Below the pieces are notes generated by a model. That model was given only the letters and a program-made list of their open reading frames with translations. It was not told the origin of the DNA and made no database searches. Positions 18,724-29,375 of a stretch of 39,402 nt of DNA are shown here, in pieces. The position numbers and the translations under genes are program-made. Position 1 is the first letter of the stretch. Each line of letters opens with the position of its first letter. Source of the DNA: a virus. The stretch is taken from positions 1 to 39,402 of IMG/VR virus record IMGVR_UViG_3300030098_004972. One strand, 5' to 3'.

Positions 18724-19024
18724 ATCGTTCCCTCAACTTATTTCTATTCTTAAACATAATGTCCTCTGGTTTTACACCTAGTTCATTACAAGCTGCAAAA
18801 ACATAATATAGGACATCCCCTAGTTCTTCTTCTAGCATATTTTGTGGAAATTGTCTACCATCATTGTAAAATCTCCACTTCTTAAATTCATCTAATAGTT
18901 CACCTGCTTCCGATGATATTCCTATCAAGGCATGTGCCAAATCATCTTTTTGAAAGTGGGCGTATGGTCCACCTGCTTTTTTCCAAGTTGATTTCATTGA
19001 TTCCATAAATTCTTCATTATCCAT
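18686..19024 (-). CDS. mazG: MazG-type nucleotide pyrophosphohydrolase
   Basis: A 112-residue protein when started at the ATG at 19024 (GGAG 7-8 bases upstream) instead of a TTG 12 bases out. The helical metal-binding motifs are present: SSEAGELLDEFKKW, with the E-x-x-E core, and EEELGDVLYYVFAACNE. MazG enzymes hydrolyse nucleoside triphosphates to monophosphates; phage copies are proposed to recycle nucleotides or alter the host starvation signal. It overlaps the helicase stop by 8 bases, in the middle of nucleotide and replication genes. Confidence 0.9.
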   Translation of the reverse strand: MDNEEFMESMKSTWKKAGGPYAHFQKDDLAHALIGISSEAGELLDEFKKWRFYNDGRQFPQNMLEEELGDVLYYVFAACNELGVKPEDIMFKNRNKLRERYAITSKLPPNCS

Positions 19025-20333
19025 TTTTCTCTCCAAAAAACTTTACTCTTCTTACTCTTTTACCGTTCATTCTATTAAATGTTATTTTAAAAATTGTAGA
19101 AAATCTTTCCTGTAATTTTGACAACTCACTTCTAGATAAAGCCTTAAACTCTTTTTCTCTAAAAGCTTCTTGTACTATTGTTAAGTCTATGACCTGTCCT
19201 TTCTTCTCTACTGCATAATCCTCTAAGAACCATTCTTGAGCATCGGTCAACGTAGAAAGTTTGATATCCTCTAGTCTTTGAGATCTATGAACTTTAAGCA
19301 TCTCATCTTTATCAACCTCATAATGATATAAATACTTAGCTAACTCTTCTATGTTTTTTAATTCATTTAGTTGTTCTATTTCTTCTACTGTAAAATTAGA
19401 ATCTAGTCTGTTGTTTGTTAGTTCAATAACTGAAAACCTTCTATCATTTTCAGGTATGTAAAGTGAATCTAAATTATTTGAAGCTACATAAATTGATGCG
19501 TAGTTATCATCTAGTTTAGCATCTTTTCCTTTCCCTTCTATTTCTATTTTATCATTAACTAAATCTTTAAACTTATTCATATGATTAGTTTTCTTTATGT
19601 TTATCTCATCACAAAACACTAATCTTTTATTTCTTATTTGAGCATTAAAATCTTTTGATATTAATTTATTATCTGTTTTAGTAAAATTACTTAGACCAAC
19701 TAAGCCTAACATGATATTCCCTAGAACTCCTTTACCGATTCCAGGTGCGCCTATAGCTGTTAGAACACAAAAGTTTCTATCTTGAATTGAGTTTGCTAAC
19801 CACTTTACCATATAATTATATTCTGATTCTTTTCCATTTGATAGATGAATAAAAAATCTATGAAACAACTCTGGCATTTTATCCACTCTCTCAACTTCTT
19901 TGTATTGACCATACTCGTCTACCATCCAAGTAGGAGGTTCATAATTATTGAAGTAACTTATCAGGTCATCACCTTCATAAACTCTTTCTCTTTTGAAAGG
20001 ATCATAGACAAACTCACAAGGTCTTATCACTAAATCTTTCATGGCATCTTTATCTAAAACATTTCTAAGTTGTGCTTTTTCAATTTGCTTTATCTCTGGA
20101 TGAAATGGATCATCCATAAAAATTAACTGACCTTTCTCTCTCATGTTAGTAAATAAATTAGACCTCATAATTTTTTGTGCCAGTCTAAATTCAGAATCAT
20201 TTTTCTCATTAACAATTTTATCTATAACATTTTCTTTGGTTTCTGGAAACTGATGTTTTAGTCTACTACTTATCTGCTCTTTATCAAACCCTGACCTTAC
20301 TAGTTTTCTCATTTCATTCCTTATCTTTTGCAT
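19017..20333 (-). CDS. DUF5906 / SF3-type replicative helicase
   Basis: A 438-residue protein. I start it at the ATG at 20333, 6 bases after GAGGAAA, rather than at a TTG 12 bases earlier. The ATPase core has Walker A GAPGIGKG (about residues 195-202), Walker B LVFCDEIN (D242, E243), sensor IYVASNN and a probable arginine finger NDRRFSVIE. This is the helicase type (DUF5906/P4-like superfamily 3) that in plasmids and NrS-1-like phages is joined to an AEP primase. Here the primase is a separate gene two positions upstream (20712-21677). It probably unwinds DNA at the phage origin or fork. Confidence 0.88.
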   Translation of the reverse strand: MQKIRNEMRKLVRSGFDKEQISSRLKHQFPETKENVIDKIVNEKNDSEFRLAQKIMRSNLFTNMREKGQLIFMDDPFHPEIKQIEKAQLRNVLDKDAMKDLVIRPCEFVYDPFKRERVYEGDDLISYFNNYEPPTWMVDEYGQYKEVERVDKMPELFHRFFIHLSNGKESEYNYMVKWLANSIQDRNFCVLTAIGAPGIGKGVLGNIMLGLVGLSNFTKTDNKLISKDFNAQIRNKRLVFCDEINIKKTNHMNKFKDLVNDKIEIEGKGKDAKLDDNYASIYVASNNLDSLYIPENDRRFSVIELTNNRLDSNFTVEEIEQLNELKNIEELAKYLYHYEVDKDEMLKVHRSQRLEDIKLSTLTDAQEWFLEDYAVEKKGQVIDLTIVQEAFREKEFKALSRSELSKLQERFSTIFKITFNRMNGKRVRRVKFFGEKNG

Positions 20334-20712
20334 ACGTTTCCTCAATATTAAAGTATCGATGAGACCCTAGTGGGTTCTTAAGATCATCATAATAACAAAA
20401 AGGTTTTGTCATTATACCAGCTACATACTTTTCAAGCTTCAAAGCTCTGACAACTGATTGTGCCCAATGAACTCCACCCTTTGACCATACTATAACATCT
20501 ATACCTCTAGAACCATGTCTTTTCAACTCTTCCAAATTACCTTTGTTTATCACCATATGGTTCAAATGTCCATCACAATTTATACAAACTGTGTCCCCTG
20601 TAAGTTTTTCATCCCACATCACAAGTGTATCGTCAACGTCAAAGAATACTGTAGGTTTGTAAAAGACTTTTGGTTTTCTTTCTTTTATGGTTTCCATTAT
20701 GCTGTTAGCCAC
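20314..20712 (-). CDS. HAD-family phosphatase-like protein
   Basis: A 132-residue protein starting with GTG at 20712, overlapping the primase stop (TAGTG) with AGGAG 9 bases upstream. Motif I is FFDVDDTLV (nucleophile D25, D27), motif II lies in IDVIVWSKGG (Ser), a Lys is in IMTKPF, and CYYDD could be motif IV. Small HAD enzymes of this type act on phosphate esters, for example nucleotides or DNA ends. An insertion has CINCDGHLNH, a possible metal site. Between primase and helicase, a role in nucleotide or DNA-end handling is likely but unproven. Confidence 0.75.
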   Translation of the reverse strand: MANSIMETIKERKPKVFYKPTVFFDVDDTLVMWDEKLTGDTVCINCDGHLNHMVINKGNLEELKRHGSRGIDVIVWSKGGVHWAQSVVRALKLEKYVAGIMTKPFCYYDDLKNPLGSHRYFNIEETYAKDKE

Positions 20713-21677
20713 TAATCTGACTCCTGAAATATTCTTCTTATGTTTCTCTTAACATTCTCTATCTTTTCTCTTGAGTAACCTATTTGGTTTAGGTAATCAA
20801 AAGTATGTTTATCTAAAATACTTATAAGCAAGTCTGGATTTTTGGTAACTTCTCTTTTGGACCAGTACGCTATGTTTCTAAGTCTAGGATAGTTTCCATC
20901 AGCATTACCCCATTCTTCTGGATACTTAATCCAGTTTCTCAAACCCTTAGGACACAAAGCCCAAAACTGTTTATCATTTTTTGCAAAGTTGGCAACATCA
21001 ACAAAGTTTGTTTCCGGTGCCTTAACCAGTGGGCATTTTTCTAGTATTTTATTTAGTGTAGCCATTGAACATTTGCTACCCATAAACTCAATTCGTTGTA
21101 GGTGACCTTGTCTCATGTAGTTAGGAAACCTTGAGAACCTTGATGGGTTTTTTGTTGCTTCGTCTAATACTCCGTCTTGAAGCCCTACAATTTTTCCAGC
21201 GTATTCGGCGTTTATTAGGGCTGCTAAGCGTTTCCATACTTGTTTGTATTGCTCTACCCCTTCTTGAGTATGAGGCTCTCCTAGGTTGTCCTCAAGGCTC
21301 AATATTGCATGATAACTTTTGTTACCACTAAATACTATGGCAGTCCAAGGAATACCAGACCGGAACAATAATTCTAGTTGATCATCTAGCGGTATTCCAT
21401 CAATCTCAAACATTAGATTCTTAAGACTAGTACAATTCAAGTCTGCTCTACGTGGTTTGTTAGGTTCATACTTCTTAGGGTCATAACCATAAGCAAAATC
21501 TATTGAGGGGTGGATAGGGTTCACGGTATAAAGTGGAAACGCATATTTTGATGCCTTTTCTACAATGTTTCCTATGAGTTCAGGTTTAGTTTCAAACCTA
21601 TCACCTGCTACAATATGGTCATGTCCACCAAAAAGAGTATGAAAAAATTTGTCTACACTCGTTTTTTCAGGAAGCAT
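20712..21677 (-). CDS. Archaeo-eukaryotic-type primase (AEP) catalytic subunit
   Basis: A 321-residue protein with the AEP fingerprints in order: a first acidic pair in LMFEID (E91, D93), SGNKSYHAIL (H123), an acidic site in QDGVLDEATK, and the Arg-rich NPSRFSRFPNY (177-187). These build the nucleotidyl-transfer site that makes primers. No zinc finger and no helicase domain are attached, so the primase-helicase is split between this gene and 19017-20333. This pairing differs from the T7 plan (gp4) used by many PolA phages. The ATG has AGGAG 6 bases upstream and overlaps the UDG-like gene by 11 bases. Confidence 0.82.
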   Translation of the reverse strand: MLPEKTSVDKFFHTLFGGHDHIVAGDRFETKPELIGNIVEKASKYAFPLYTVNPIHPSIDFAYGYDPKKYEPNKPRRADLNCTSLKNLMFEIDGIPLDDQLELLFRSGIPWTAIVFSGNKSYHAILSLEDNLGEPHTQEGVEQYKQVWKRLAALINAEYAGKIVGLQDGVLDEATKNPSRFSRFPNYMRQGHLQRIEFMGSKCSMATLNKILEKCPLVKAPETNFVDVANFAKNDKQFWALCPKGLRNWIKYPEEWGNADGNYPRLRNIAYWSKREVTKNPDLLISILDKHTFDYLNQIGYSREKIENVKRNIRRIFQESD

Positions 21678-22029
21678 TATGTTCTCCTATGTAATCTTTA
21701 CATTCTTTTAAGAACTTATCTACAACTTTTTTATCGTTTAGTAAATAGTTTTTTCCTGATGGGTGAGGTATTTTTAAATGTGGAATGTTTTCTTTAGTTA
21801 AAACCTTAGATGCTTCATTCCCTAAAGCAATCACAGCATCAAATGAGGACCATATTCTATCATCATTAGTTTCTATAAATCTGGCATGATTAAATAAACA
21901 AATACTATTGATACTGAGATTCATTCTATAAATCCAATCAAGTAAAGTTTTATAAGACCTTGTGCCTACGAACGCTACATTTTTATCTATGTTTTTTTTA
22001 GATGGCTTGTCGCCTACGAAGTAAATCAT
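21667..22029 (-). CDS. Uracil-DNA-glycosylase-superfamily-like protein
   Basis: A 120-residue protein, short for the superfamily. YFVGDKPSKKN near the start fits motif A ('GxxP'), AVIALGNEASKVL the central strand, and IPHPSGKNY (about residues 87-95) fits the 'HPSGxN' motif that enters the DNA minor groove. The water-activating residue of classical UDG is not evident, so it could bind without excising, or use another residue. It is the first gene after the strong 22.1-kb promoter. It may repair uracil or act in replication or host takeover. Confidence 0.6.
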   Translation of the reverse strand: MIYFVGDKPSKKNIDKNVAFVGTRSYKTLLDWIYRMNLSINSICLFNHARFIETNDDRIWSSFDAVIALGNEASKVLTKENIPHLKIPHPSGKNYLLNDKKVVDKFLKECKDYIGEHNAS

Positions 22030-22074
22030 ATCATCCCCTTTGGTAACTGGTACCCGACTTTTTAACTATACTAT

Positions 22075-22103
22075 ATTATATTATATAATACTATACTTAT
22101 CAA
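22075..22103 (-). promoter_or_regulatory. Leftward sigma-70-type promoter for the replication block
   Basis: On the minus strand TTGATA (22103-22098) is followed after exactly 17 bases by TATAAT (22080-22075), ahead of the UDG-like gene at 22029. The 114-base non-coding stretch around it is very A+T rich, with a 12-bp palindrome TATTATATAATA at 22079-22090 within the spacer/-10 area. It should drive the UDG, primase, helicase and nucleotide genes. Confidence 0.75.
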
Positions 22104-22108
22104 GTATA
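22092..22108. promoter_or_regulatory. Operator-like perfect dyad over the -35 box
   Basis: TATACTT-ATC-AAGTATA is a perfect 7+7 inverted repeat covering the -35 element of the 22.1-kb promoter. A dimeric regulator bound here would block or replace -35 contacts. It lies between two GGTACC sites (22049 and 22133). The Fis-type and LuxR-type proteins encoded in this window are candidate binders. Confidence 0.5.
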
Positions 22109-22143
22109 AGTGAATTTTTTATAGGAACCATTGGTACCGGACC

Positions 22144-22311
22144 TTATAAATCACTTAACCCCGACCTTATGAGTTCTCTCTCTGCTGCTTCCCTGAAGAA
22201 CTCGATGTCCTCTTGTGCCTTATCAAGCTCCGACCTTAAGCTTTGCATCAACATATCCATAGTCTCTACTTTCTCTTCTAAAGCCTTGATTCTACGCTCT
22301 GATTCACTCAT
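22144..22311 (-). CDS. Small coiled-coil protein, 55 residues
   Basis: Too short for usual cut-offs. ATG at 22311, overlapping the TGA of the Fis-type gene (ATGA), with GAGGTG 6 bases upstream. The product is one long charged helix (SESERRIKALEEKVETMDML and on, then EFFREAAERELIRSG), probably a dimeric coiled coil. It could be a partner of the regulator it is coupled to. It ends just before the 22.1-kb promoter. Confidence 0.7.
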   Translation of the reverse strand: MSESERRIKALEEKVETMDMLMQSLRSELDKAQEDIEFFREAAERELIRSGLSDL

Positions 22312-22634
22312 TTTTCACCTCTATAAAATCTTTTGTATCTATTATCTAATCTCTCACCTACAGCCAACCGAGTGTCACCACCGACGGTTTTATACTCGAA
22401 ACAATCTCTTAATTGTCTAACAGGCTGCGTAAATTGGTACCATCTTTCTACCCATTTAATCTGGTACCGTTCGATATAACTAAACAAAGTAACTTGAGTT
22501 ATGTTCAAAATCTTTCCTGCTTCAACCTTTCTACCCTTCGCATGTAACAATGTTTTAGCTACACAATGCGCCTTAAAATCATCAAGTGGTACCACCTCAT
22601 CAATGCTTTGTGGGTTCAGAATCGGGTCCCTCAT
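22308..22634 (-). CDS. Fis/NtrC-type helix-turn-helix regulator
   Basis: A 108-residue protein. Residues about 19-58 (FKAHCVAKTLLHAKGRKVEA, GKILNITQVTLFSYIERYQI) match the Fis-type HTH of NtrC C-termini: 'A...L...G....A...L.I...TL...I..Y.I'. The last 45 residues are basic and may add DNA contacts. There is no ATPase or receiver domain. It has a strong GGAGGAA ribosome site, lies just upstream of the promoter of the replication block, and its own coding sequence holds three of the five clustered GGTACC sites. A role in switching early to replication genes is a reasonable inference. Confidence 0.75.
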   Translation of the reverse strand: MRDPILNPQSIDEVVPLDDFKAHCVAKTLLHAKGRKVEAGKILNITQVTLFSYIERYQIKWVERWYQFTQPVRQLRDCFEYKTVGGDTRLAVGERLDNRYKRFYRGEK

Positions 22635-24593: not shown

Positions 24594-25023
24594 CACCTCT
24601 AAGGTCACAAATGTAATAATTGTTACCATCTTTAGTGTAGTTCTCGCATTGAGTTGCAATGCCTTTAGTTGTCGCAATAAATTTTCCAAGCTTCTCACTC
24701 TTAGGCAACTCATTTAGTGAAGCGTCAAAGGGCTTGACCATAAACTTCAACTCAGCATTCCTATCTGAATCAACAAATAATATTGAGTGCTGGTTGTAAA
24801 TGTGCGCCAACTGTTCAACGGTTGCAAGATCAAACACCTGATTAATAACAGGCACTAAGATAGATAACTCCGACTCGCCACGATAAACACCCTCAACTAC
24901 TTTATACTTGAACCCAAAGTCCTCAAGATGTTTAAGAACCTTTTTGTGGTTGTCCATGTTATCTTGATGACTTAACCTAGATTGAAATGCTGAAAATATT
25001 ACAAAAGCGTCTTTTTTATTCAT
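24586..25023 (-). CDS. First gene of the leftward arm, unknown (possibly DUF3293-like)
   Basis: A 145-residue protein starting with GGGAGG 5 bases before the ATG and 20 bases after a good promoter, so it is probably among the first phage proteins made. The layout 'AFVIFSAFQSRLSHQDNMDN', VVEGVYRGESELSILVPV and HSILFVDSDRNAEL vaguely recalls DUF3293 proteins ('N...r...L...L...g......G......E.S'). The evidence for that is weak. Timing suggests an early host-takeover or anti-defence role (inference). Confidence 0.55.
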   Translation of the reverse strand: MNKKDAFVIFSAFQSRLSHQDNMDNHKKVLKHLEDFGFKYKVVEGVYRGESELSILVPVINQVFDLATVEQLAHIYNQHSILFVDSDRNAELKFMVKPFDASLNELPKSEKLGKFIATTKGIATQCENYTKDGNNYYICDLRGVA

Positions 25024-25043
25024 TCAAACCTCCCGATAACTAA

Positions 25044-25072
25044 AGTATAGCACGATCAGACAAAACCTACAA
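25044..25072 (-). promoter_or_regulatory. Leftward early promoter
   Basis: On the minus strand TTGTAG (25072-25067), 17 bases, TATACT (25049-25044). Transcription would start about 13 bases before the GGGAGG ribosome site of the gene at 24586-25023. It overlaps the rightward promoter at 25057-25085, so the two cannot be used at the same time. Confidence 0.65.
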
Positions 25073-25085
25073 GACTTTTTATAAT
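25057..25085 (+). promoter_or_regulatory. Rightward early promoter, overlapping the leftward one
   Basis: CAGACA (25057-25062), 17 bases, perfect TATAAT (25080-25085). The predicted start near 25092 leaves a leader of only about a dozen bases before the ATG at 25105, without a ribosome site. Its -35 lies within the spacer of the leftward promoter. Confidence 0.6.
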
Positions 25086-25104
25086 AAAAAATGTACAATT
25101 AGTT

Positions 25105-25581
25105 ATGAGCAAAAAAAAGCAAAAAACGCCCTCATTTAAAGAGTTACAAAAAGCATGGTATAAGATACTCGACGACTCCGGCTTTGACGATATCGAACGG
25201 TCTGGAAAGAATAAAGACCAGTTTACAATCGATGAGTATAGCGGAATACTAAAGAGACCGACGAGCGTTGTTAGGGCAAAATACAATTTATTTATCGAGA
25301 AATACTACAATATAGCAAGCTTTTTAAGCCAAAACGCCACCTTTTTACCTAAAATTGACCTTAAGATACTAGAATTACATGGCGAAGGCTACACAACTCA
25401 ACGCATATCCGACTACTTACGAGAAAACTTTGAATATCCTTTACAGAAGACCCCGAGAAAGCGTAAGCCCTACTCAATTTTTTTCGTGCATACTAAACTC
25501 AAGTATTTAAAATTATTAATATTAATCTATGCTAAGACAGACTGCCTCAGAAGTGTTAAGATATCCTGGCAATCTATGTAG
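25105..25581 (+). CDS. Phage protein of unknown function with possible HTH
   Basis: A 158-residue basic protein. The beginning SFKELQKAWYKILDDSGFDD followed by IERSGK is a pattern I have seen in phage and mobile-element proteins of unknown role. Residues about 92-110 (DLKILELHGEGYTTQRISDYL) look like a helix-turn-helix. The ATG has no ribosome site and only a very short leader from the promoter at 25057-25085. It stands alone between the divergent promoter and the virion operon's own promoter, as a regulator would. DNA binding is inference. Confidence 0.6.
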   Translation: MSKKKQKTPSFKELQKAWYKILDDSGFDDIERSGKNKDQFTIDEYSGILKRPTSVVRAKYNLFIEKYYNIASFLSQNATFLPKIDLKILELHGEGYTTQRISDYLRENFEYPLQKTPRKRKPYSIFFVHTKLKYLKLLILIYAKTDCLRSVKISWQSM

Positions 25582-26257: not shown

Positions 26258-26716
26258 ATGGACAACTGTAGACTCCGTCCCCTGATAGAGGATGACCTTC
26301 CATTTTTATTCAATAGTTGGCTGAAGTCCTATAGGGTCTCTCACTTTGCCGACAAGATTACAAACACTATTTATTTTGAAGACCACCATAAACTTATTCG
26401 TCGTATTCTTGAGGACTCAAAGATTCTCATGGCTTGTAATCCTTCCGACCCTTCTCAGCTTTATGGCTACGTAGTATCGGGGGAGGTAGACGGTATCCTG
26501 GTTATCCACTATCTTTATGTTAAGCATACCTTCAGAAATATGGGGATAGGAAAAACTCTTTTAGACGCAACGGGTCATTCAACCGACAAGGCTGGAGTTT
26601 ACACCCATCACACTCGCATGGCAGACAAGCTAGCATCTAAACAAAATTTTGTTTATCATCCTTATTTATTATTTGACCTTCCTAACCTATCGGAGCCAAT
26701 AGATGAGCAGGACTAA
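26258..26716 (+). CDS. GNAT-family N-acetyltransferase
   Basis: A 152-residue protein. The N-terminus CRLRPLIEDDLPFLFNSWLK fits the GNAT start, and the acetyl-CoA site is ILVIHYLYVKHTFRNMGIGK followed by TLLDA, the R/Q-x-x-G-x-G motif. Phage GNAT enzymes next to terminase genes are common in marine phages; the substrate is unknown and could be a host or virion protein. GAGGTG lies before the ATG. Confidence 0.8.
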   Translation: MDNCRLRPLIEDDLPFLFNSWLKSYRVSHFADKITNTIYFEDHHKLIRRILEDSKILMACNPSDPSQLYGYVVSGEVDGILVIHYLYVKHTFRNMGIGKTLLDATGHSTDKAGVYTHHTRMADKLASKQNFVYHPYLLFDLPNLSEPIDEQD

Positions 26717-27266
26717 AGATGTAGATAAAGAAAAGTTAAGACTCGACTACCTCTTTGACCAGGGGGTTAATTTTGTAGATCGAGTTATTCAGATTAATGA
26801 AGAGATAGATGACCATAGTTTTGCATTTATAGATGCCGCCCTAAGTGAACTAGAAAGGGCTAGTAAGAAAACTATAACTATAAGAATAAACTCTCCAGGT
26901 GGTTCAGTCTATGATGCCCTAGCCATGATAGGTAGACTTAATGCTTCTAGTTGTCGTATAGTAACAGAGGCATATGGACACGTAATGAGTGCAGCCACAT
27001 TATTATTAGCAGCAGGTAAAAAACGCCGCATGTCTAAATACTGTGTGTTTATGGCACATCAAATGTCTTATTACATAGGAGGGTCTCATGCTGAAACGAA
27101 AGAAGAAGTAGATCAAGTTGAAAAACAAGAACGTCAATGGTGTTCTTGGATGGCAGAGTTGAGTGAAAAAGATGCAGAGTTTTGGTATGATAAAACCTAC
27201 AAGAAAAACTTTTACTTGACTCCAGACGAATGTTTAGACTATGGAGTTATAGATGAAATCTTTTAA
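26703..27266 (+). CDS. ClpP-fold serine protease, cytoplasmic copy (catalytic Asp replaced by Asn)
   Basis: A 187-residue protein. The oxyanion-hole loop INSPGGSVYDA (62-72) and the nucleophile site EAYGHVMSAATLLLAAG (S96) are present, with His in CVFMAHQM (H119). Aligning the C-terminus by eye on E. coli ClpP (the 'EYGLVDSI' end), the third triad residue becomes N169 in KKNFYLTPDECLDYG. It has no signal peptide and no HK97-capsid fusion. Head-gene ClpP proteases usually cut scaffold or capsid. Its role here is open because a second ClpP-fold protein is encoded nearby. Confidence 0.85.
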   Translation: MSRTKDVDKEKLRLDYLFDQGVNFVDRVIQINEEIDDHSFAFIDAALSELERASKKTITIRINSPGGSVYDALAMIGRLNASSCRIVTEAYGHVMSAATLLLAAGKKRRMSKYCVFMAHQMSYYIGGSHAETKEEVDQVEKQERQWCSWMAELSEKDAEFWYDKTYKKNFYLTPDECLDYGVIDEIF

Positions 27267-27534
27267 AAACCGCAGTCACGAAGTAGCTTATAATATGATG
27301 GAAATAAGTGTAGAGTTAATAGATGAAGTATTTAAAAAGGTAGACAAACTTGCTGATGCTAACTCTCACAGAGAACGTAATGGTTTAAAACTTATTGACT
27401 CTGGACACTTTAGATGGGATATCAGGCAGCTCAAGATTAACACAAAAAACAAGCTTGAGAAAATTATGAACTTACTAGAAGAGTATGGGGATGACGCAAA
27501 ACTAGTCACTCACGAACCGGAGGAAAAAGAATGA
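27253..27534 (+). CDS. Hypothetical helical protein between two protease genes
   Basis: A 93-residue charged helical protein; its start overlaps the first protease gene by 14 bases (GGAG 6 bases upstream) and its end overlaps the second by 4 bases. The order protease, this gene, protease is tightly coupled, so it may be an adaptor or substrate of one of them. No family recognised. Confidence 0.6.
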   Translation: MKSFKNRSHEVAYNMMEISVELIDEVFKKVDKLADANSHRERNGLKLIDSGHFRWDIRQLKINTKNKLEKIMNLLEEYGDDAKLVTHEPEEKE

Positions 27535-28178
27535 AGAAACTATTGACCTTAGCTATTTTGGGGGGTCTATTTTTAGGCACCTTTTTGTCAATTGAAAAAG
27601 AAGAAGTATTAGAGAACAAGTATGATGTTTCTATTGGAGCTATCGATGGCTACAGCATAGGACCTACACTAAAAGACTTTAAGAACGCAGCAAGAGCAAA
27701 CGGAAAGGATAAAGTAATTGACATGGTTATAAACTCCGGTGGTGGGTCAGTTCATGTTGGGCTAGAGTTTATTGAAGAAATGAAATACTTTAAAAGCTTA
27801 GGTTACAAGTTCAACTGCTACGTTCGTAATGCATACTCTATGGGATTTATAATCTTACAATATTGTGACCATAGGATAGGGAGTTCTAATTCTACTTACA
27901 TGCACCACCTAGTGCAGGTAGGATACGGCAGACCTGAAAGAACTGAAAATAATAAAAAGTTGTTTAAAGCACTTGACTTTTTCGATAATCTAGTGTTAGA
28001 TGAAATCTCAAAAAGAATGGGCGTAAACCCTAAAGAGTTCTTTGAGATTTATAAAGATGACAAATGGTGGGATGCTAAAGAAGCTCTTAAGTCTAACATC
28101 ATAGATGAGATAAAGCCATTTAGTTTAGTTGTAAAAAAAGTAAAATATAAATTCGTACCATTTTGGAGGAGATTTTAA
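27531..28178 (+). CDS. ClpP/SppA-like serine protease with N-terminal signal sequence
   Basis: A 215-residue protein. Residues 1-19 (MKKLLTLAILGGLFLGTFLS) are a signal peptide or signal anchor, so the enzyme should face the periplasm. The fold matches ClpP/SppA: MVINSGGGSVHVGLEFIEEM, nucleophile RNAYSMGFIIL (S103), STYMHHLV (H126), and Asp at the expected third place in KDDKWWDAKEAL (D177 by eye alignment). The triad is complete, unlike in the first protease. The basic tail VKKVKYKFVPFWRRF might bind membrane. A strong ribosome site (GGAGG) lies 7 bases before the ATG. An exported ClpP-like enzyme in a head operon is unusual. Confidence 0.82.
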   Translation: MKKLLTLAILGGLFLGTFLSIEKEEVLENKYDVSIGAIDGYSIGPTLKDFKNAARANGKDKVIDMVINSGGGSVHVGLEFIEEMKYFKSLGYKFNCYVRNAYSMGFIILQYCDHRIGSSNSTYMHHLVQVGYGRPERTENNKKLFKALDFFDNLVLDEISKRMGVNPKEFFEIYKDDKWWDAKEALKSNIIDEIKPFSLVVKKVKYKFVPFWRRF

Positions 28179-28496: not shown

Positions 28497-29375
28497 ATGA
28501 GTGGTAAGAACGCAAAAAAAGCAAGAAAAGAAGCAAAAGAAAATGAGTCCGAACAAGATAAACTAAAACGATTAGCTGAAGCTACAGACTTTAAATTAAT
28601 GAAACCTTTTGGTCCATCGTTTGGTATGTTTGTTATGCCAGATGAAATGACGAAAGCTTTGCTAAAAAAGTCTGATGAAATACTAGAGGATAGAAACAGA
28701 GTAGACTGGGGTAAAAACCTTGTAGGTCAAATTGCAGAGGAGCCTTGGATTTCTAATGAAGACTTAGATGAGATTGGAGCACTAAAGTATTTAGAAGGTA
28801 TGCTGTATAACTACGTATGGAATGCTCTAGCTTCCGATGGTCATCAAGTAGAACTTTTAGAAGTTAGTCTAGATCATGCATGGATTGTCAGTCAGTATGA
28901 AGGAGAATACAACCCTGTTCACTTTCATACCTACTGTGATCTTTCTTCTGTATTATACTTAAAAGTACCACCACTTGACGAAAGATCCAAGAACAAAGAG
29001 TTACCAGATTATAAATTTTCTAGAGATGGGATGATTGAGTTTATCTACAAAACAGCTTGCCCTGGAGGTTTAGAGAAAGGTTCACTGTCTTTTACCCCTG
29101 AGCCAGGAAAATTAGTTATCTTTCCATCTAACCTTTTGCATACAGTTTATCCATTTAAAGGAGAAGGTGAACGTAGGTCTATAGCTTTTAACTCTCATTG
29201 GAACGCAAGACTTAAAGGTGGAAAAGTATTTGACAAATCATTTAGAATGAAGTCAGATCAAAAAAACGAAGAGTATCAAAAGACATTAAAATCAAAAAAC
29301 GAGGAATCTGGATTTGCAAAACGTAAACAGGGAAGCCCTGATAGCGGAGCTTCAGAAAAGGAAGACAAAGTCTGA
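28497..29375 (+). CDS. 2-oxoglutarate/Fe(II)-dependent oxygenase
   Basis: A 292-residue protein. The double-stranded beta-helix core has YNPVHFHTYCDLSSVLYLKV (H142 or H144 as first iron ligand, D148 near) and PGKLVIFPSNLLHTVYPFKG (H215), then ERRSIAFNSHWN (Arg for the 2-oxoglutarate carboxylate). This is the PF13759 type often found in marine phages, proposed to hydroxylate prolyl or other protein residues. Its first 25 residues are Lys/Glu-rich. The gene's last 62 bases overlap the start of the large terminase, so the two are co-translated. The substrate is unknown. Confidence 0.85.
   Translation: MSGKNAKKARKEAKENESEQDKLKRLAEATDFKLMKPFGPSFGMFVMPDEMTKALLKKSDEILEDRNRVDWGKNLVGQIAEEPWISNEDLDEIGALKYLEGMLYNYVWNALASDGHQVELLEVSLDHAWIVSQYEGEYNPVHFHTYCDLSSVLYLKVPPLDERSKNKELPDYKFSRDGMIEFIYKTACPGGLEKGSLSFTPEPGKLVIFPSNLLHTVYPFKGEGERRSIAFNSHWNARLKGGKVFDKSFRMKSDQKNEEYQKTLKSKNEESGFAKRKQGSPDSGASEKEDKV

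Follow-up and report, generated by a model that had tools for sequence, protein, structure and literature searches.

Candidate operators of a Fis-type helix-turn-helix protein flanking a predicted replication promoter in an uncultivated phage group

The locus and its relatives

The window analysed here, a whole IMG/VR record of 39,402 bp, carries a leftward operon that starts near 25.02 kb and runs through several small genes, the gene of a 108-aa probable regulator with a Fis/NtrC-type helix-turn-helix (HTH) and a conserved open reading frame (ORF) of 55 aa into an intergenic region of ~115 bp (Table 1). Beyond this region lie genes for a uracil-DNA-glycosylase (UDG)-like protein, a primase, a HAD-like protein, a DUF5906 helicase and a MazG-like protein (as read by eye), and further downstream those for a ThyX-type thymidylate synthase, ribonucleotide reductase and DNA polymerase A. 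Among the genes scanned, none was recognised as an integrase or lysogeny gene. A search of viral contigs for the regulator, primase, helicase and 55-aa ORF returned only three contigs besides the window, all from IMG/VR: G001 (L009), G002 (L010) and G003 (L016), the last of which ends inside an AT-rich stretch. The comparison is accordingly one of three related lineages in four contigs, the window included. Counterparts of the 55-aa ORF lie at 5367-5534 in L009 and 5328-5528 in L010. Searching bacterial genomes gave no relatives, and neither a close cultured relative of the phage nor a relative of the regulator was found among the cultured phages searched.

Table 1. Positions in the window of the genes and sequence elements discussed in the text
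Feature	Positions	Strand	Basis or description
DUF5906 helicase/primase-type gene	19017..20345	-	PF19263, E 9.1e-19; phrog_1156, E 3.5e-26
Primase-like gene	20712..21677	-	phrog_2597 DNA primase, E 5.8e-9
UDG-like gene, first behind the predicted promoter	21667..22029	-	PF03167, E 1.3e-5
Site A	22042..22054	-	GGTACC with a GTTACC half-site 7 bp away
Sigma-70-type promoter, TTGATA-17-TATAAT	22075..22103	-	Consensus scan (11/12), alignment, prediction
7-3-7 dyad over the -35 box, TATACTT-GAT-AAGTATA	22092..22108		TATACTTGATAAGTATA on the minus strand
Site B	22124..22143	-	GGTACC with a GGTTCC half-site 9 bp away; core 22133-22138
Conserved 55-aa ORF between regulator and site B	22145..22312	-	Read from sequence
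108-aa probable regulator, Fis/NtrC-type HTH	22308..22634	-	HTH at residues about 19-56
Second in-gene site	22436..22441		Codons TGG TAC CAA (WYQ); 27 bp from the site at 22463
In-gene site, end of recognition helix	22463..22468		Codons CGG TAC CAG (RYQ); conserved in L009
Third in-gene GGTACC	22588..22593		Probably accidental; unconserved as GGTACC in either relative

Several features outside this locus were recorded. A divergent promoter region with a conserved GTAC core separates the early from the structural genes (25023-25105), and a promoter-like TTGTAG-17-TATACT element is found there in the window, L009 and L010. Two neighbouring genes (26703-27266 and 27531-28178) both match families of ClpP-like head maturation proteases and may represent a duplicated or two-subunit protease, and a 2OG-Fe(II) oxygenase gene (28497-29375) directly precedes the terminase gene. 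All four related genomes lack GGCC (0 observed against 34.6, 18.7, 18.8 and 13.7 expected), a pattern suggestive of HaeIII-type restriction-site avoidance (window; L024-L029).

The GGTACC cluster and the intergenic sites

Of 12 promoter-like sites in the region the intergenic promoter scores best, though their number does not exceed the 13.1 expected in shuffles. The relatives keep TTGATA or TAGATA and TATTAT at the same spacing of 17, and the three other matches to the promoter pattern lie inside coding sequence, apparently by chance. Transcription would likely start at about 22068, seven bases past the -10 box. The preliminary description had drawn attention to a perfect 17-bp dyad at this promoter; the dyad does cover the -35 box and is present in L010 and L016 as well as in the window, but it is one of 33 perfect dyads in the window with 7-bp arms and spacers of 0-8, one base breaks it in L009, and as a lone feature it is at chance level.

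By exact count the window of 39,402 bp contains ten GGTACC. Five stand at 22049, 22133, 22436, 22463 and 22588 (span 22049-22593), all TGGTACC on the plus strand, and the other five at 1249, 1697, 8740, 32788 and 32987. These counts bear out the earlier statement of five TGGTACC within 545 bases against about five elsewhere, as they do its placing of three sites inside the HTH gene and of two, 22049 and 22133, on either side of the promoter. The total of ten compares with 3.9 in dinucleotide shuffles and with 9.6 predicted by sub-word counts of the window itself; since it is close to the latter, the unusual part is the clustering and not the total. None of 20,000 simulations placed five of ten uniform points within 551 bp. 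Among the 64 palindromic hexamers GGTACC is the most clustered, and among all hexamers the second most (scan p 4.6e-5, uncorrected), a value that correction for about 2,000 hexamer classes leaves no better than borderline; the several probability tests on the sites were made after the data had been seen. The cluster is real, its count alone is only suggestive, and the case for the sites is carried, at the level of sequence, by comparison with the relatives.

G001 keeps four of the five clustered sites, namely both intergenic ones and the in-gene pair 27 bp apart, while G002 and G003 contain no GGTACC in 44 kb. Loss of the sites in a close relative had been named beforehand as evidence against a regulatory role; the hexamer is literally lost in G002, but doublets with a GTAC core stand there at the same positions. 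Site B reads GGTACC-AAT-GGTACT in L009 and TGTACC-AGG-TGTACC in both L010 and L016, with the second half-site 9 bp from the first in the window and all relatives, and site A reads GGTACC-A-GGTACC in L009 and GGTACG-TT-GGTACG-TAC in L010. The 21.7-kb G002 contig has three pairs of GTAC within 12 bp of each other, every one of them at A or B, with about 0.5 such doublets expected genome-wide; retention of GTAC in the G002 cluster is not above background (2/5 vs 7/19). DNA identity between the window and L010 is about 53% at site A, 57-73% over the end of the HTH and 83-100% over most of the 55-aa ORF and the promoter. The likeness of A and B as a direct repeat (15/18 bases) extends beyond the core. 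Judged from these alignments, what is recognised appears to be two half-sites with a GTAC core, 7-9 bp apart and set within a longer asymmetric motif, and not GGTACC alone. The G002 sites have changed together while keeping the GTAC core. Avoidance of a KpnI-type site was considered for the loss of GGTACC in G002 and G003 (L026-L029) and set aside, only about 6 copies being expected there by sub-word counts; several other hexamers are also at zero in these contigs, and GGTACC is possibly a second avoided site in G002-type contigs.

Sites A and B flank one predicted promoter in the window, L009 and L010, B at about -67 and A at about +17 from the probable start point, and site A lies directly upstream of a Shine-Dalgarno sequence, AAAGGGG (22035-22041). 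The GTAC of A is 84 bp from the GTAC of B in all three, which is eight turns of 10.5 bp and a whole-turn spacing in three lineages, although the spacing sits in a gap-free alignment and its conservation is therefore weak evidence for phasing. A matrix built from A and B finds its best matches at this locus and only scattered ones elsewhere, and in a search of the remaining sequence with the matrix and for doublets no further intergenic operator was recognised. TAAGGTC occurs three times at or upstream of site B (22140, 22163 and 22232; region 22140-22240), its copies kept at the same places in the relatives and two lying within the 55-aa ORF; it was rejected as a further operator motif, having many copies genome-wide and no specificity for the locus. 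Tandem GTACAA/GTACAG hexamer repeats were noted in the G003 contig (L029, 20957-21010).

The regulator and the sites within its gene

All four orthologues of the regulator match HTH_8 (PF02954; best E 1.2e-5), the window copy alone scoring 12.6 bits, below the cut-off of 22. The orthologues also weakly match models of the C-terminal HTH of PrdR, ZraR, FlbD and Fis, and the best solved relative is ZraR (E 0.11). An AlphaFold2 model made with four sequences, of low confidence (mean pLDDT 48.5) and too weak for a fold search, has helices at residues 19-32, 36-41 and 47-56. By profile match, the likeness to Fis/NtrC-type proteins lies in the tri-helical HTH; no AAA+/ATPase domain was found, and the C-terminal part has no family match. 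The window protein is 77%, 70% and 69% identical to its orthologues in L009, L010 and L016. Compared with L010, it differs at 11 of 19 residues over the end of the HTH (54-72) against 10 of the 53 residues before it (p 0.003). The core of the recognition helix is identical in the window and L010 (TQVTLFSY) although their sites differ, and reads TQRTLFTW in L009 although the L009 sites match those of the window. As far as these alignments go, the pattern is not what a simple recognition code predicts; the contacts may lie in the variable segment after the helix core, or the G002 sites may be tolerated variants about a common GTAC core. The 108-aa protein is the predicted binder and probably reads the sites.

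At the place equivalent to the 22463 site, L010 and L016 carry a shifted GGGTACGTTGG copy, whereas the 22436 site is kept in L009 with the same 27-bp spacing and is absent in L010. The third site is GTGGTACCA in the window, ATTGTACCC in L009 and GTTGTTCCC in L010. When codons were resampled synonymously from the phage's own codon usage, at least three GGTACC arose in the window gene in 0.05-0.08% of resamplings (p 0.0005) and two in the G001 gene in 1.9% (p 0.019); with the unconserved 22588 site left aside, at least two are reached in about 3%, which makes the in-gene excess a moderate line of evidence. The segment at the end of the recognition helix encodes IERYQIK in the window and LKRFRVR in G002, where the gene reads TTCGGGTACGTTGGGTA and has the 13-mer TCGGGTACGTTGG in common with site A, both copies in the same strand orientation. 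A 13-base match of this kind appeared in 0.3% of shuffles (p 0.003) and 0.03% of synonymous resamplings (p 0.0003).

The unusual feature of the locus, to judge from the two lineages, is a sequence resembling an operator that lies in the recognition-helix codons and varies in step with the intergenic operator. A bolder form of this idea is that the codons specifying the end of the recognition helix contain the operator, so that a single stretch of DNA sets what the protein reads and also supplies a copy of it, and that the G002 operator gained the same 13 bases in a joint shift of specificity. We consider this decidedly doubtful; if true, recognition-helix codons and intergenic operator would together form a self-referential way to shift specificity.

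Proposed control and comparison with known systems

Our preferred reading, to which we give a probability of a little under one half, is that A and B are operators of the adjacent regulator flanking the replication promoter, with repression the likely outcome and autocontrol through the in-gene sites. The regulator would be made early, from the leftward operon beginning near 25.0 kb, and would bind B and A on the same face of the DNA, eight turns apart. The near-consensus promoter of the UDG-like/primase/helicase operon would then most likely be repressed, either through a small A-B loop or directly at A on the initially transcribed region, and the weaker in-gene sites, lying in the path of the early transcript, would let the regulator slow or shut its own transcription. 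That this protein is the binder, that it represses rather than activates, that it loops the DNA and that it regulates itself are all points we infer. Repression is preferred because a promoter so near consensus hardly needs an activator and because A falls in the initially transcribed region. The early-to-replication switch of the preliminary description is supported in part, by the UDG-like, primase and DUF5906 genes downstream, the Fis-type HTH gene upstream and the conserved sites in between.

An activator would differ from this reading only in sign. As in class I activation, regulator bound at B would contact RNA polymerase from about -67 and turn the replication genes on after the early genes, A modulating or delaying escape. 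Class I activators are typically centred at -61.5 or -71.5, close to the centre of B, the -35 and -10 boxes match less well in L009 (TAGATA, TATTAT) and the HTH resembles that of enhancer-binding activators. We still think activation unlikely: the window promoter already matches 11 of 12 consensus positions, the position of A favours repression, the protein lacks an ATPase domain and inspection by eye showed no sigma-54 promoter. Somewhat less likely again, yet a live alternative, is an iteron-type origin, with the small protein as initiator acting both within its gene and at sites around a 70-bp unwinding element rich in A+T. At 84% A+T, the stretch at 22058 ranks second among the 70-mer loci of the window, the sites lie inside and beside the gene with primase and helicase genes following, and the lambda iterons lie within O, next to an A+T-rich region (PMC5043065). 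The few sites here, with their irregular spacing (27, 125, 303 and 84 bp), do not, however, resemble an iteron array, A is tied to the Shine-Dalgarno sequence with the promoter layout kept, and cumulative GC skew, which follows gene direction, turns at about 25-26 kb and not at this locus.

That chance and coding constraint explain the cluster, through WYQ and RYQ codons and common ancestry with no recognition function, seems improbable to us. The borderline significance of GGTACC among all hexamers, the unconserved 22588 site and the resampling frequency of about 3% agree with it, but the in-gene sites exceed codon needs, the intergenic doublets are conserved in three lineages and the change in G002 is a correlated one; pure chance does not account for the G002 doublets. 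Least probable is control at the RNA level, by a protein or RNA acting on the motif in the mRNA. Site A adjoins the Shine-Dalgarno sequence, the G002 copies all run in one sense and L010 site A can form a hairpin (-10.7 kcal/mol, z -2.3), yet in the window this site folds less well than its shuffles (z +1.6), that of L009 is average, and the encoded HTH family binds DNA. With good folding confined to L010, a hairpin at site A was rejected, and Rfam and tRNA scans gave no match.

Should repression from A and B prove right, the locus would provide a compact regulator-operator pair for an uncultivated phage group without a close relative among the cultured phages searched. It would also offer a possible natural test case for operators and a Fis-type recognition helix changing specificity together, since an in-gene site overlaps recognition-helix codons.

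By analogy, the closest working comparison would be GalR at the Escherichia coli gal operators, where OE at -60.5 and OI at +53.5 lie 113 bp or 11 turns apart and repression by GalR is phase-dependent (PMC4693257). In both cases two operators or candidate operators flank a promoter at whole helical turns, here 84 bp and eight turns. GalR, in contrast, is a LacI-type repressor that needs HU and has 16-bp operators, whereas the present locus has a 108-aa Fis-type HTH protein, half-site doublets and a hypothetical loop. Cluster A mycobacteriophages have more than 20 stoperators of 13 bp across the genome and an immunity repressor of 183 residues (PMC9283540, PMC6550527). The likeness to them lies in asymmetric sites that are oriented with transcription and differ in sequence between lineages together with the regulator; a genome-wide scatter of many oriented sites is not seen here, where about four conserved sites lie at one locus. 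Lambda ori, whose 19-bp iterons form an array within the O gene next to A+T-rich DNA (PMC5043065), likewise combines sites in a gene with neighbouring A+T-rich DNA and replication genes. The A+T-rich element has its counterpart here, and in place of the repeat array there are short sites scattered around a promoter. The locus fits best as one more case of an arrangement of known type, in which operators of a phage regulator flank a promoter.
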